Shown here: piece after piece, positions 51,630-56,404 of the stretch
Layout: every line of letters begins with the position of its first letter
Position numbering within the stretch: the first letter of the stretch is position 1
DNA from: Brachyspira alvinipulli ATCC 51933
GTDB taxonomy: Bacteria > Spirochaetota > Brachyspiria > Brachyspirales > Brachyspiraceae
Direction of reading: 5' to 3'
DNA length: 64,000 bases
Assembly: GCF_000518245.1 (NCBI RefSeq)
Contig: NZ_KI912402.1
Coordinates: 116,544-180,543, forward strand
Notes under the pieces: generated by a model
What the model was told of the DNA's origin: nothing
Seen by the model: the letters and a program-made list of their open reading frames with translations, nothing else
Database searches by the model: none
Translations under genes and position numbers: made by a program

Positions 51630-52985
51630 ATGATAAAATTAACTGATAATCCAAAAGAAAGATTAATTATAGCATTGGACTTTAATTCTATGGGAGAAGC
51701 TACAAAGCTAATAGATGAACTTGGCGATGAAGCTGTATTCTATAAAGTAGGACTTGAACTTTTCCTATATACTAAAGGTGAAATAATAGAGTATTTGGCT
51801 AGTAAAAATAAAAAAGTATTTCTTGATTTAAAATTTCATGATATACCTAATACTACTGCTATGGCTTCACTTTTTGCTGCTAAACAAAATATATTTATGT
51901 TTAATGTGCATACAAGCGGCGGTAAAAAGATGATGGAAAAAACAGTTGAAGAGATCAAAAAACTCAATAAAGACAATCTTATAATTGGTGTAACAATACT
52001 TACAAGTTTATCAGAAAATGATGTAAAAAATATGTTCAGCTCTAATTTAGCACTTACAGATTTAGCTGTTAACTGGGCAAAATTAGGAAAAGAGTCTGGA
52101 CTTGATGGTGTTGTATGTTCTCCTAGAGAAGCTGCAATAATAAAAAAAGAGTGCGGAGAGAATTTCAGAACTGTTTGTCCTGGAGTAAGACCTAAATGGG
52201 CTAGCGTTGATGATCAGGAAAGAATAATGACTCCTAAAGAAGCCATAGAAAACGGCTGCGATTACTTGGTCGTTGGAAGACCTATTACAAGAAACGAAGA
52301 CAGAGTAAAAGCATGTAAAATGGTTGTTGAAGAAATTGCGGAAGGAATAGCTAACAATAAAAAATTAAAAGCAAAATTAATAGCCGGTGCTTTATTAGAT
52401 ACTAAAGCTGTAAAATTAAATGTTAAAGAACCATTTACTTTTGTATCCGGCATAAAAAGCCCTATTTATTGCGATAATAGATATGTTATAGGTTTTCCTG
52501 AAGCAAGACAAGTTATAGTAGATGCTTTCGTAAGTATTCTTAAAGATAAAGATTTTGATGTAATAGCTGGTACTGCTACTGCAGGAATACCTTGGGCATC
52601 TTTCATAGCTTATGAACTTAATAAGCCTCTTTGTTATATAAGAGCTGAAAAGAAAGAACATGGCAGAGGTAAACAAATAGAAGGTGCTGAATGTGAAGGT
52701 AAAAAATTGATATTAATAGAAGATTTAATATCTACTGGAGGAAGCTCTATAAAAGCATTTGAAGCTGCTAAAAGTGAAGGAGCTATAGGTCTTGAAATTA
52801 TAGCTATATTCTCTTATGAATTTGAAAAAGCTTATAAAAACTTTGAAGAAGCAGGAATAAAATTCTCATCATTGTCAAATTTCTCATCTCTTATGGAAAT
52901 AGCTAAAGATGAAAATTATATAACGGAAGAAGAATTAAAAAAAGCATTAGAATGGAATAAAAACCCTGACGAATGGGGAAAATAA
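51630..52985 (+). CDS. pyrFE: PyrF-PyrE fusion (OMP decarboxylase / orotate phosphoribosyltransferase)
   Basis: 451 residues. Residues about 1-240 are orotidine-5'-phosphate decarboxylase: LIIALDFNS, the catalytic KxxD-like DLKFHDIPNTTA, and VVGRPITR. Residues about 250-451 are orotate phosphoribosyltransferase: VSGIKSPIYCDNR, TATAGIPWA, the PRPP loop LIEDLISTGGSS. The fusion performs the last two steps of UMP synthesis in one chain, in reverse domain order to the animal UMP synthase. Ends the pyr operon, followed by a terminator at 53016. Confidence 0.93.
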   Translation: MIKLTDNPKERLIIALDFNSMGEATKLIDELGDEAVFYKVGLELFLYTKGEIIEYLASKNKKVFLDLKFHDIPNTTAMASLFAAKQNIFMFNVHTSGGKKMMEKTVEEIKKLNKDNLIIGVTILTSLSENDVKNMFSSNLALTDLAVNWAKLGKESGLDGVVCSPREAAIIKKECGENFRTVCPGVRPKWASVDDQERIMTPKEAIENGCDYLVVGRPITRNEDRVKACKMVVEEIAEGIANNKKLKAKLIAGALLDTKAVKLNVKEPFTFVSGIKSPIYCDNRYVIGFPEARQVIVDAFVSILKDKDFDVIAGTATAGIPWASFIAYELNKPLCYIRAEKKEHGRGKQIEGAECEGKKLILIEDLISTGGSSIKAFEAAKSEGAIGLEIIAIFSYEFEKAYKNFEEAGIKFSSLSNFSSLMEIAKDENYITEEELKKALEWNKNPDEWGK

Positions 52986-53048: not shown

Positions 53049-53482
53049 GTATATACTGAAAATTTTTAAGTTTGTCAACTGATGCACTTTATATAAATTT
53101 TATCTACTTTTTTGCCGCACACGCCACAGGCGGGCTTCGCCAAAGTAGCTGCCACAGGCACGCTTCGCAAAAACGCAATTACTAGAACTTTATATTTTAA
53201 GAATATCTATTAAATATGGTGTAATACCCTAATTTTAGGTTAAAAATGCAGTTGTTCGCGAAGCGTATCTAAGCTTGTCGAGGATATAGGTCTCGCCGAA
53301 GGCGGGCTGTGCCTTATATCAATACTATACCTAAAGGTACTCCTTTCAGTCGCAGTACTTCCTTCGGTCGTAAAAGAACTGGGGTTCTGGGCAAAGCCCT
53401 GAAAATATTTTAAATTAAAAAAATTATTTTGACAAAATATAATTGTTTAGATATATACTAAAAATTGAATATAAATAAAAAA

Positions 53483-53512
53483 CGGCCTTTAATATAAGAA
53501 TATTAAAAGCCA
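53483..53512 (-). terminator. Rho-independent terminator for the rhodanese-CstR gene
   Basis: Stem GGCTTTTAATAT / ATATTAAAGGCC as read on the minus strand, followed by GTTTTTTATT. It lies about 40 bases beyond the stop of the gene at 53554. Confidence 0.8.
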
Positions 53513-53553
53513 TTTTCAACATAATAACAAAACATAAAATTTCAAACAATAAA

Positions 53554-54159
53554 TTACTTTATAAGTTTTCTCATATATCTAAAGAAATCATCTTTTTCTT
53601 TAGGAGAAATCATACAAGTATTCAAAAAGACTTCCATAATTTCTTGATTAACACTGCCCATAGCTGCCTTAACAGCGAGAGACTGATTGAGTATATCTCC
53701 GCAATACTCACCCTTAGCTAACATTTTCTTCATACCTTTAATTTGACCTTCAATTCTGTTTAATCTGATAATAAGTCTCTTACGTCTTTCCAAAGCCTCC
53801 TCTCTATCAAATTTAGACACCTTGTTGCTATCACCAAAATGTTTATTCCAAGCTTTTAATCCGCCATCTAATACATAAAGAGTATTAAATCCCTCATCTT
53901 TCATATATTCGGCTGCTTTCATACTCAATTTACCAACAGAACAATACAACAAGTAAGGAGTTTCTTTATCTAGCTTGGATATTTCTCTTTTAAACACCCT
54001 TGGCTTAAGGAAATCCATAGAAATGGAATCTTCAATCATACCTTCATAGTTATGCTCCATCTCTGTTCTTACATCAAGTATAACTATATTTTCGATATTT
54101 TTAATAATTTCACCCGCCTCCGAAGGAGACACTATATTTAATCCATTTTCTATAACCAT
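53554..54159 (-). CDS. Rhodanese-CstR fusion transcriptional regulator
   Basis: 201 residues. Residues about 8-110 are a rhodanese domain with active-site Cys73 (LLYCSVGKLSMKA). Residues about 120-200 are a CsoR/FrmR/CstR-family DNA-binding domain (RLNRIEGQIKGMKKML). Cys153 and Cys182 are 29 residues apart, as I recall for CsoR Cys36/Cys65 and CstR Cys31/Cys60. The copper-binding His expected four residues before the second Cys is Phe178, which argues for persulfide sensing rather than copper. The next gene upstream is a CoA-disulfide/polysulfide reductase. A one-chain sulfurtransferase sensor is unusual. Confidence 0.9.
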   Translation of the reverse strand: MVIENGLNIVSPSEAGEIIKNIENIVILDVRTEMEHNYEGMIEDSISMDFLKPRVFKREISKLDKETPYLLYCSVGKLSMKAAEYMKDEGFNTLYVLDGGLKAWNKHFGDSNKVSKFDREEALERRKRLIIRLNRIEGQIKGMKKMLAKGEYCGDILNQSLAVKAAMGSVNQEIMEVFLNTCMISPKEKDDFFRYMRKLIK

Positions 54160-54193
54160 AATTTAAATCCTTAAAAAAATCTATATATTTACT

Positions 54194-54221
54194 ATTATAT
54201 AAAAAAAATAGATTTTTACAA
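54194..54221 (-). promoter_or_regulatory. Promoter for the rhodanese-CstR gene
   Basis: On the minus strand -35 TTGTAA (complement of 54216-54221), 16-base spacer, -10 TATAAT (complement of 54194-54199). An 8-base inverted repeat AAAATCTA / TAGATTTT flanks it. The gene therefore has its own promoter downstream of the upstream gene's terminator. Confidence 0.7.
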
Positions 54222-54268
54222 AATATTTTTTCAAAATAAAATACAAAAATAGTTTGCATTACATAAAA

Positions 54269-54302
54269 AAGGCTATTTTTATAATAAACAAAAATAGCCT
54301 TA
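54269..54302 (-). terminator. Rho-independent terminator after the CoA-disulfide reductase gene
   Basis: Stem AAGGCTATTTTT / AAAAATAGCCTT, with a T-run on the minus strand (TTTTTTATG). It separates the reductase from the regulator transcript. Confidence 0.85.
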
Positions 54303-54328
54303 TATATAAATTTAACTTATAATCAAAA

Positions 54329-56017
54329 TTATTTGAAATATGATGTCAATATTGGTTTTCTTCCTGTAGTTTTATCATTATAATATTCATATTGTGATAA
54401 ACCTATAAATCCTCCTGAAACATTAACAACATTATCAAATCCCATATTTTGAAGTATTTTACAAGCAGTATAGCTGGTTAATCCTGTTTTACAAGTAATA
54501 TATACTGTTCTATCTCTAGGTATTTCATTATATCTGCTTCTTAAGGCTCCTAAAGGTATATTAACAGCCTTTTCTAAATGTCCTAAAGCAAAATCTTCCG
54601 GCATTCTTACATCTAAGAAATAAGAATCTTTTTCAACTAACTCTCTAACCTGACTATAATGTACCTGCTTAAAGTCTCCATTTCTTAAATTAGATGCCAC
54701 ATAACCAGCAAAATTAACTACATCTTTAGCAGTTCCGAATGAAGGAGCATAACATAATTCCAAATCTTTCAAATCATCTATAGTTCCGCCGAATTTTATA
54801 ACTGTAGCTATAACATCTATTCTCTTATCAACATTTCCTCTGCCTATTGCCTGAGCACCTAAAATTTTTCCTGTTGGAACTTCATATATAAGCTTGAAAT
54901 GCACTAATTTTGTAGTAGGCATAATTGATACACCGTCAAAAGGAATTATATCAACTGTATCATAGTCTATGTTCAAATTCATAGCCTTAATAAAGCCCTC
55001 AGAAAGTCCTGTAGAAGCTCCATTATATCCGAATACTTTTATAACTGATGAACCTATGAATCCTCTGTTATCTACTGTTCTTCCGTTAATATGATCTGCA
55101 ACTGCTCTAGCTTGTTTTTGAGCAGGTCCAGCTAATGCCAATTTGAAATAATCATTGAATAATGCTCCATAAACTTCTATAGCATCACCAACAGCATAAA
55201 TATCTTTATCATTAGTTCTATAGTTAGAATCAACTTTAATAGCTTTAGTTTTTCCTAACTCTATGCCTGCTTTAACTGCTATATCAGTTTCTGGTGCTAC
55301 TCCTATAGCAAGTATAACAGCATCAGCCTCTACTTTCTTTCCTGAAGCTAAAACTACTGTATTAGTATCAAAACTATCAACTTTATCATTAACAATTAAT
55401 TCAACACCATTATCAATTAATTCCCTATGTAAAATTTGAACCATATCATAATCGAAGGGCTTCATTATTTGAGGCAATGCTTCTACTATTGTTACATTAT
55501 ATCCAGCATGTTTCAAATTTTCAGCCATTTCAATACCTATAAATCCTCCGCCTATAACAGCTACTTTAGCCTTAGGCTTGCCGTTAAGAAAATGATGTAT
55601 TTTACTTATATCAACAACATTTCTTACAGTAAATACATTAACTTTTTCTATTCCTTTAATAGGAGGAACTATAGGTTTAGCACCCATAGAAAGTATAAGT
55701 TTATCATAACTTTCTTTATATTCTCTACCCTCGCATACAACAGTAACTTCTTTTTTTTCTCTATCTATAGCTATAACTTCACTATTAACTCTGGCATCAA
55801 CATTAAATTGCTTTAAAAATTTCTCAGGCGACATAAGAAGTAAAGTTTCTTCATTAGGAATTAATCCGCCTATATGATAAGGAAGCGAACAATTAGAAAA
55901 TGATACATGAGGCCCTTTTTCAAACATTATTATTTTATCTTGTTCGTTTAATCTTCTAAGTCTTGCAGCAGCTGAAGCTCCTCCTGCAACACCGCCTACT
56001 ATTAATATTTTTTTCAT
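54329..56017 (-). CDS. CoA-disulfide / NADH-polysulfide reductase with rhodanese domain
   Basis: 562 residues. FAD/NAD(P) disulfide oxidoreductase fold (residues 1-450): FAD motif VGGVAGGASAAAR, active-site Cys43 in SNCSLPYHIGG, NAD motif AVIGGGFIGIEMAE, FAD end IYAVGDAIEV. The C-terminal rhodanese domain (about 460-555) carries Cys509 in ITCKTGLTS. Such fused enzymes reduce CoA-persulfides or polysulfide with NADH. It shares a promoter region with a candidate operator at its -10, and it is next to the persulfide-type regulator. Confidence 0.92.
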   Translation of the reverse strand: MKKILIVGGVAGGASAAARLRRLNEQDKIIMFEKGPHVSFSNCSLPYHIGGLIPNEETLLLMSPEKFLKQFNVDARVNSEVIAIDREKKEVTVVCEGREYKESYDKLILSMGAKPIVPPIKGIEKVNVFTVRNVVDISKIHHFLNGKPKAKVAVIGGGFIGIEMAENLKHAGYNVTIVEALPQIMKPFDYDMVQILHRELIDNGVELIVNDKVDSFDTNTVVLASGKKVEADAVILAIGVAPETDIAVKAGIELGKTKAIKVDSNYRTNDKDIYAVGDAIEVYGALFNDYFKLALAGPAQKQARAVADHINGRTVDNRGFIGSSVIKVFGYNGASTGLSEGFIKAMNLNIDYDTVDIIPFDGVSIMPTTKLVHFKLIYEVPTGKILGAQAIGRGNVDKRIDVIATVIKFGGTIDDLKDLELCYAPSFGTAKDVVNFAGYVASNLRNGDFKQVHYSQVRELVEKDSYFLDVRMPEDFALGHLEKAVNIPLGALRSRYNEIPRDRTVYITCKTGLTSYTACKILQNMGFDNVVNVSGGFIGLSQYEYYNDKTTGRKPILTSYFK

Positions 56018-56048
56018 TTTTTCACTCCATAAATATATATTTCTTTAA

Positions 56049-56084
56049 TATACCTAGTATATGTATAATACATAAAGAAGTCAA
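56049..56084 (-). promoter_or_regulatory. Promoter and candidate CstR operator of the reductase gene
   Basis: On the minus strand -35 TTGACT (complement of 56079-56084), 17-base spacer, -10 TATACT (complement of 56056-56061). The -10 is inside the inverted repeat TATACCTAGTATA (56049-56061), well placed for a repressor such as the nearby CstR-type fusion. Confidence 0.7.
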
Positions 56085-56206: not shown

Positions 56207-56404
56207 ATGGGAGTTTATTCTATTTATTCATCTGAAATGTTTCCATTGACTAGACATATGACTTCTGCTGGATTAAATGTTTACAATTCTTCAGCTTATG
56301 GTTCTGCTCAATCTGCTGAGAAAGTTGCAAGCATAGTAACTTCTCAGGGATCATCTGCACCTATAAATATTAACATGGGAAAGATGTTGGATGTATATGC
56401 TTAA
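56207..56404 (+). CDS. Small protein of unknown function
   Basis: 65 residues, not recognised. It is preceded by GGAGG at a good distance and followed by a strong terminator, with neither neighbour on the same strand close by. It is therefore a stand-alone gene. The sequence is rich in Ser, Ala and Tyr with no signal or membrane segment (MGVYSIYSSEMFPLTRH at the start). An inverted repeat TATACATT / AATGTATA lies in its leader. The tidy expression signals make it likely real. Confidence 0.72.
   Translation: MGVYSIYSSEMFPLTRHMTSAGLNVYNSSAYGSAQSAEKVASIVTSQGSSAPININMGKMLDVYA

Follow-up and report, generated by a model that had tools for sequence, protein, structure and literature searches.

When the CstR repressor of Staphylococcus aureus meets persulfides or polysulfides, its Cys31 and Cys60 become joined by di-, tri- and tetrasulfide links (PMC9774590, in which the protein of PDB entry 7mq2 is also named CstR). 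In Enterococcus faecalis, CstR controls CoAPR, the CoA-persulfide reductase, and a cst-like operon encodes RhdA, RhdB, CstR and CoAPR as separate proteins; the donors and acceptors of these rhodaneses in the cell are not known (PMC9405070). Two CstR-like proteins have also been studied. Disulfide-linked TTHA1953 of Thermus thermophilus shows weaker DNA binding, and its consensus site is TACNNTACNNNNGTANNGTA (PMC10318464); thiosulfate elicited no response from YrkD inside cells (PMC9918477). Among other sensors, a rhodanese tunes the sensor response in Rhodobacter, although the acceptor of this SqrR-tuning rhodanese is not known (PMC9995734), and in Hyphomicrobium a YeeE-like protein takes part in signalling to SoxR (PMC11582611). 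What makes a persulfide sensor specific, and whether it receives its signal from sulfurtransferases, are open questions.

Sensing and sulfur delivery may sit in one chain in the gut spirochaete Brachyspira and in some fusobacteria. We consider it probable, at roughly 0.7, that the fusion protein described here is a one-chain repressor that responds to reactive sulfur, in the form of persulfide or polysulfide, and controls the adjacent CoADR-RHD gene.

A rhodanese joined to a CsoR-type domain

The window analysed is a stretch of 64,000 nucleotides from Brachyspira alvinipulli ATCC 51933. A gene on its minus strand (53554-54159) encodes a predicted rhodanese-CsoR fusion repressor of 201 amino acids. 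As a preliminary description had claimed, two domains are joined in this protein, and both exceed the curated Pfam cut-offs: Rhodanese at residues 15-106 (E 9.5e-15) and Trns_repr_metal/CsoR (PF02583) at residues 126-190 (E 6e-20; 71.9 bits against a cut-off of 22.8). The latter match places the protein in the CsoR/DUF156 family, and it is the sole PF02583 match in the genome of the window. A linker at approximately residues 107-118 leads to helices at 119-148, 153-181 and 186-200, which make up a complete three-helix CsoR domain, with pLDDT of ~57-64 beyond residue 181 in the single-chain model. Overall, the predicted structure (mean pLDDT 83.6, pTM 0.71) consists of a rhodanese fold and then three helices arranged as in CsoR. 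Rhodanese folds were the top matches listed when solved structures were searched with this model, and each sequence match to a solved chain was confined to one of the two domains.

The only cysteines are Cys73, Cys153 and Cys182, and residue 178 is Phe, all of which agree with the preliminary description. The closest related fusion is 98% identical. In an alignment of 26 fusions from Brachyspira and Fusobacteriota, with identities down to 46%, C73, G76, C153, F178, N180 and C182 show no variation. The rhodanese active-site loop reads CSVGKLS, and this C-x-x-G loop with its active-site Cys, together with the Pfam match, predicts that the rhodanese domain is catalytically competent.

Other elements lie beside the fusion gene. 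Between it and pyrFE is a dispersed intergenic repeat (53095-53400) with G+C-rich pieces such as GGCGGGCTTCGCC; the genome of the window contains 27 matches to this repeat, full or partial. The pyrFE gene (51630-52985, plus strand) encodes OMP decarboxylase and orotate phosphoribosyltransferase in one chain, in the order PyrF-PyrE, and belongs to a pyrK-pyrD-pyrFE cluster.

Class of the regulator

CstR proteins are recognised by two Cys residues 29 apart, the lack of the copper-ligand His and sulfur-metabolism target genes nearby. The fusion has the first two features through C153, C182 and F178, and the genes near the fusions include those for CoADR-RHD and, in Fusobacteriota, YedE. Copper-sensing CsoRs use Cys-His-Cys ligands; all 26 aligned fusions have Phe178 in place of the His. 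His is present at this position in the fusobacterial CsoRs L089, L124, L125 and L126, and a recognisable P-type ATPase gene adjoins the CsoR gene in L089 and L126. The equivalent residue is Asn in 7mq1 and Ala in 7mq3, so the fusions do not carry the Asn of 7mq1. By sequence, the CsoR domain of the fusion also scores better with CsoR than with CstR structures; its best solved relative is CsoR 4m1p. Because Phe178 replaces both the His of CsoRs and the Asn of 7mq1, the domain is, as judged from its residues, one without the copper site, yet not a strict or textbook CstR. The CstR-type identity proposed earlier agrees with the Cys pair, the missing His and the sulfur-related targets, but not with the residue at position 178 or with the structure scores.

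The neighbouring reductase

The gene at 54329-56017 (minus strand) encodes a CoADR-RHD, or CoA-persulfide reductase, of 562 amino acids. Alignments to 3icr and 8a56 reveal a reductase and a C-terminal rhodanese with both catalytic Cys residues present, namely Cys43 in SFSNCSLPY and Cys509 in YITCKTG. The neighbour had been described as a CoA-disulfide/polysulfide reductase with its own rhodanese, and it is indeed of this kind; its score lies under the NCBIfam equivalog cut-off for plain CoA-disulfide reductase. In a quick tree, Brachyspira reductases cluster with those of Fusobacterium and not with those of marine Fusobacteriaceae (support 81). This hints that the reductase was passed between gut anaerobes, which is tentative because long branches join at the root of the tree.

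An ORF of 65 amino acids (56207-56404, plus strand) is divergent from the reductase gene. Each of the 26 Brachyspira genomes searched contains a match to it, with 84-100% identity in 18 and weaker matches in the others.

A conserved operator over the reductase promoter

The reductase promoter (56056-56084, minus strand) consists of TTGACT (56084-56079), a 17-nucleotide spacer and TATACT (56061-56056). The inverted repeat TATACCTAGTATA at 56049-56061, to which the preliminary description had drawn attention, does cover this -10 hexamer and is more than a chance feature, although conservation extends beyond it. Within 17 distinct Brachyspira reductase promoters aligned on the -10, an uninterrupted 19-mer, 5'-ATACATATACTAGGTATAT-3' (56048-56066, minus strand), is invariant, whereas columns outside the promoter average 55% identity; 13 of its bases fall outside the -10 hexamer. 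We regard this 19-mer, which contains ATAC-N9-GTAT, as the putative operator.

The comparison was extended to 18 fusion-associated reductase promoters, drawn from Brachyspira, B. pilosicoli-like genomes, Fusobacterium and marine Fusobacteriaceae. Every one of them, in both phyla, has TAC-N9-GTA at the -10. When the spacer between TAC and GTA was varied over the same promoters, a spacer of 3 gave 14 hits and any other spacer 0 to 4; the score for a spacer of 3 arises because the operator is built of triplets. With flanks shuffled and the -10 held fixed, ATAC-N9-GTAT (at most one mismatch) was found in 2.3 of the 18 on average and in 8 at most. The inner repeat TATAC-N3-GTATA is kept mainly in Brachyspira, whereas the ATAC-N9-GTAT arms are kept in both phyla, and the exact 13-bp repeat was dropped as a general operator in favour of this shared pair. 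In Brachyspira, the -10 is preceded by the start of the pair at a distance of 5 bases; in Fusobacteriota, the left arm falls within the -10 itself. The Brachyspira operator is without the G/C run that is usual in CsoR operators. By our comparison, the TTHA1953 consensus likewise contains TAC-N9-GTA.

Operators were detected in 27 of 29 reductase upstream regions, and the two exceptions (L041 and L042) are paralogues unlinked to a fusion. The L042 paralogue (L042/L058, in G394) is related to CoADR-RHD and is 851 amino acids long. No genome carries the exact 19-mer more than once, and the simplest interpretation is a regulon with one target. A wider regulon was rejected, since matches with at most two mismatches are few and little above a control pattern; no sulfur genes were found at three such sites that were inspected. 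Autoregulation was likewise rejected, as the operator is upstream of no fusion gene (0 of 20 regions).

Simple co-transcription of the fusion with the reductase was also set aside. In the window, the two genes are separated by a terminator-like hairpin with a T run located 3' of the reductase gene (54269-54301, minus strand; the 71-nucleotide stretch containing it folds at -21.5 kcal/mol, z -5.8) and by a promoter-like site of the fusion gene (54194-54221, minus strand; TTGTAA, 16, TATAAT), at which the operator was not found. Another terminator-like hairpin follows the fusion gene (53478-53517, minus strand).

Distribution and gene context

Full-length fusions were detected in 22 of 26 Brachyspira genomes, with a broken gene in one (G083) and none found in three, and in 12 of 98 Fusobacteriota genomes at 47-59% identity, by a scan of genome contigs whose reach is close relatives only, so that other phyla such as Bacillota may also have fusions. 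No full-length match occurs in the other Spirochaetota genomes sampled, or in the plasmids, phages and viral contigs searched. The broken gene (L055, G083:C290) is in a B. pilosicoli-like genome and is interrupted by several stop codons, although the reductase there is still intact. We found no description of a rhodanese-CsoR/CstR fusion in the open-access papers searched.

In Brachyspira, the reductase gene is followed by the fusion gene. The order in Fusobacterium is reductase, YedE/YeeE sulfur transporter (PF04143), in most cases an amino-acid permease, and then the fusion. Most marine Fusobacteriaceae have the fusion gene in divergent orientation to reductase-YedE. In G448, a run of rhodanese and oxidoreductase genes begins with the fusion. 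No metal genes were observed beside the fusion at any locus examined.

CoADR-RHD is present in 22 of 23 Brachyspira genomes that have the fusion gene (one of them broken) and in none of three that lack it (Fisher p 0.0015, uncorrected for kinship). The exceptions are G098, with a fusion but no reductase, and G083, with a reductase and the broken fusion. The two genes are not adjacent in the B. pilosicoli-like L050-L053, yet the reductase promoters there, where a reductase is present, retain a diverged form of the operator, as expected for regulation in trans.

Proposed mechanism and alternatives

The fusion, its conservation, the operator and the synteny are observations, from which we infer DNA binding, the ligand, the direction of regulation and a sulfur relay. 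The position and conservation of ATAC-N9-GTAT over the -10 suggest that a CsoR-type tetramer of the fusion would block the promoter by binding there. By analogy with the CstR proteins of S. aureus and E. faecalis, the fusion is expected to repress the reductase and to let go when Cys153 and Cys182 are bridged. If characterised relatives are a guide, rising sulfane sulfur would lead to di-, tri- or tetrasulfide bridges between these cysteines of neighbouring chains, the bridged protein would leave the DNA, and the reductase would be made and would convert CoA-persulfide or polysulfide to thiol and H2S. Through Cys73, the rhodanese could be loaded by a sulfane sulfur donor, for example thiosulfate or a low-molecular-weight persulfide, and could then pass the sulfur on to the sensor cysteines within the same tetramer, and the signal would thereby be widened or sharpened.

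The preliminary model of persulfide transfer from rhodanese to sensor, with release of the reductase promoter, is supported in part. The operator, synteny, invariant Cys residues and loss of His favour a sulfur-sensing CsoR-family repressor at this promoter. Weighing against the proposed mechanism are the better scores with CsoR structures, Phe178, the missing G/C run in the Brachyspira operator, the lack of autoregulation, and the genomes in which fusion and reductase genes lie apart or only one of them is intact. That the rhodanese takes sulfur from a donor and passes it to Cys153/182 of its own tetramer is the most likely role for this domain, at about even odds. Sulfur delivery or thiosulfate sensing by the rhodanese is plausible because fusobacterial operons carry sulfur transporters and because of the YeeE-like signalling in Hyphomicrobium. 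We give somewhat less than an even chance to a switch in which the rhodanese loads a donor that the repressor alone cannot sense, such as thiosulfate or CoA-persulfide, and passes the sulfur within the tetramer to Cys153/Cys182, such that the enzyme domain sets ligand specificity.

The main rival to this sulfur relay, and a rather unlikely one, is direct sensing of persulfides by the CsoR domain, as in CstR, with the rhodanese being only a sulfurtransferase that an operon fusion has kept with the regulator and that has no role in signalling. Since the E. faecalis operon encodes rhodaneses and CstR separately (PMC9405070), a fusion could arise between such neighbouring genes. An Ilyobacter plasmid and a related genome (L043 and L088) have a free rhodanese without a CsoR domain in a rhodanese/oxidoreductase cluster, where the related G448 has a fusion; it is 46-47% identical to the N-terminal domain of the fusion, and possibly represents the unfused state. 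However, neither the fusion nor its catalytic Cys varies between the two phyla. Also, the fusion gene is apparently transcribed from a separate promoter, so the enzyme would be made in the amounts of a regulator, which is a poor way to produce a detoxifying enzyme.

Unlikely to a slightly greater degree is a thiosulfate sensor, whose rhodanese would convert imported thiosulfate to a persulfide on the protein and in this way trigger the CsoR domain; the system would then answer thiosulfate, to which bare CstR-type repressors are poorly sensitive. The unresponsiveness of YrkD (PMC9918477), the YeeE-like signalling to SoxR (PMC11582611) and the PF04143 genes, which separate the reductase from the fusion in Fusobacterium and adjoin the reductase in marine Fusobacteriaceae, are consistent with this idea. 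Yet the only PF04143 gene in the genome of the window is located elsewhere (C2), and the signal could equally well be polysulfide, CoA-persulfide or a persulfide derived from cystine.

It is improbable that the protein is a general thiol-oxidant or electrophile switch, in which a Cys153-Cys182 disulfide induces a CoA-disulfide rather than a persulfide reductase. The reductase family does reduce CoA disulfide, and disulfide-linked TTHA1953 binds DNA less well (PMC10318464), but rhodaneses on both regulator and reductase, and the sulfur transporters of the operons, point to sulfane sulfur. Sensing of copper or another metal in the manner of CsoR/RcnR is very improbable and was rejected: despite membership in a metal-sensor family, two Cys residues at CsoR spacing and 4m1p as best solved relative, the fusions have Phe for the His that fusobacterial CsoRs near P-type ATPase genes retain, and no metal gene lies beside any fusion examined.

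Nature has provided here a covalent pairing of rhodanese and putative sensor in which the question of delivery is reducible to one mutation, that of Cys73. Brachyspira also gains a candidate sulfur-stress regulator with a defined predicted operator and target; we found no such regulator for this genus in the open-access literature searched.

Comparison with known systems

CstR proteins (S. aureus, E. faecalis and Streptococcus; PDB 7mq1/7mq2) share with the fusion the CsoR fold, a dithiol pair 29 apart (S. aureus numbering) and sulfur-gene targets, and the E. faecalis target is of the same enzyme family (CoAPR) as the neighbour of the fusion. However, CstR is a free protein, whereas the fusion has an N-terminal rhodanese; Asn in 7mq1 corresponds to Phe, and identity is low. 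Copper CsoRs (4m1p, 2hh7 and the fusobacterial proteins near P-type ATPase genes) resemble the fusion in fold and Cys spacing and score higher in sequence, but the fusion differs in having Phe for the His ligand, no metal genes nearby and, in Brachyspira, an A/T-rich operator. The CstR-like TTHA1953 shares a sulfur regulon and an operator that is made up of TAC/GTA triplets and lacks a long G/C run, although it has no rhodanese, controls Sox genes, and release by sulfide was not seen. The ArsR-type sensors SqrR, BigR and SoxR work alike, as repressors released by sulfane sulfur and partnered with rhodaneses or YeeE-like proteins, but their fold is unrelated and the rhodanese acts in trans. The reductase has the same domains as CoADR-RHD, CoAPR and Npsr enzymes (3icr, 8a56 and 3nta) and keeps both catalytic Cys residues. 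It is an ordinary member of this family, and the unusual part of the locus is the regulator only.
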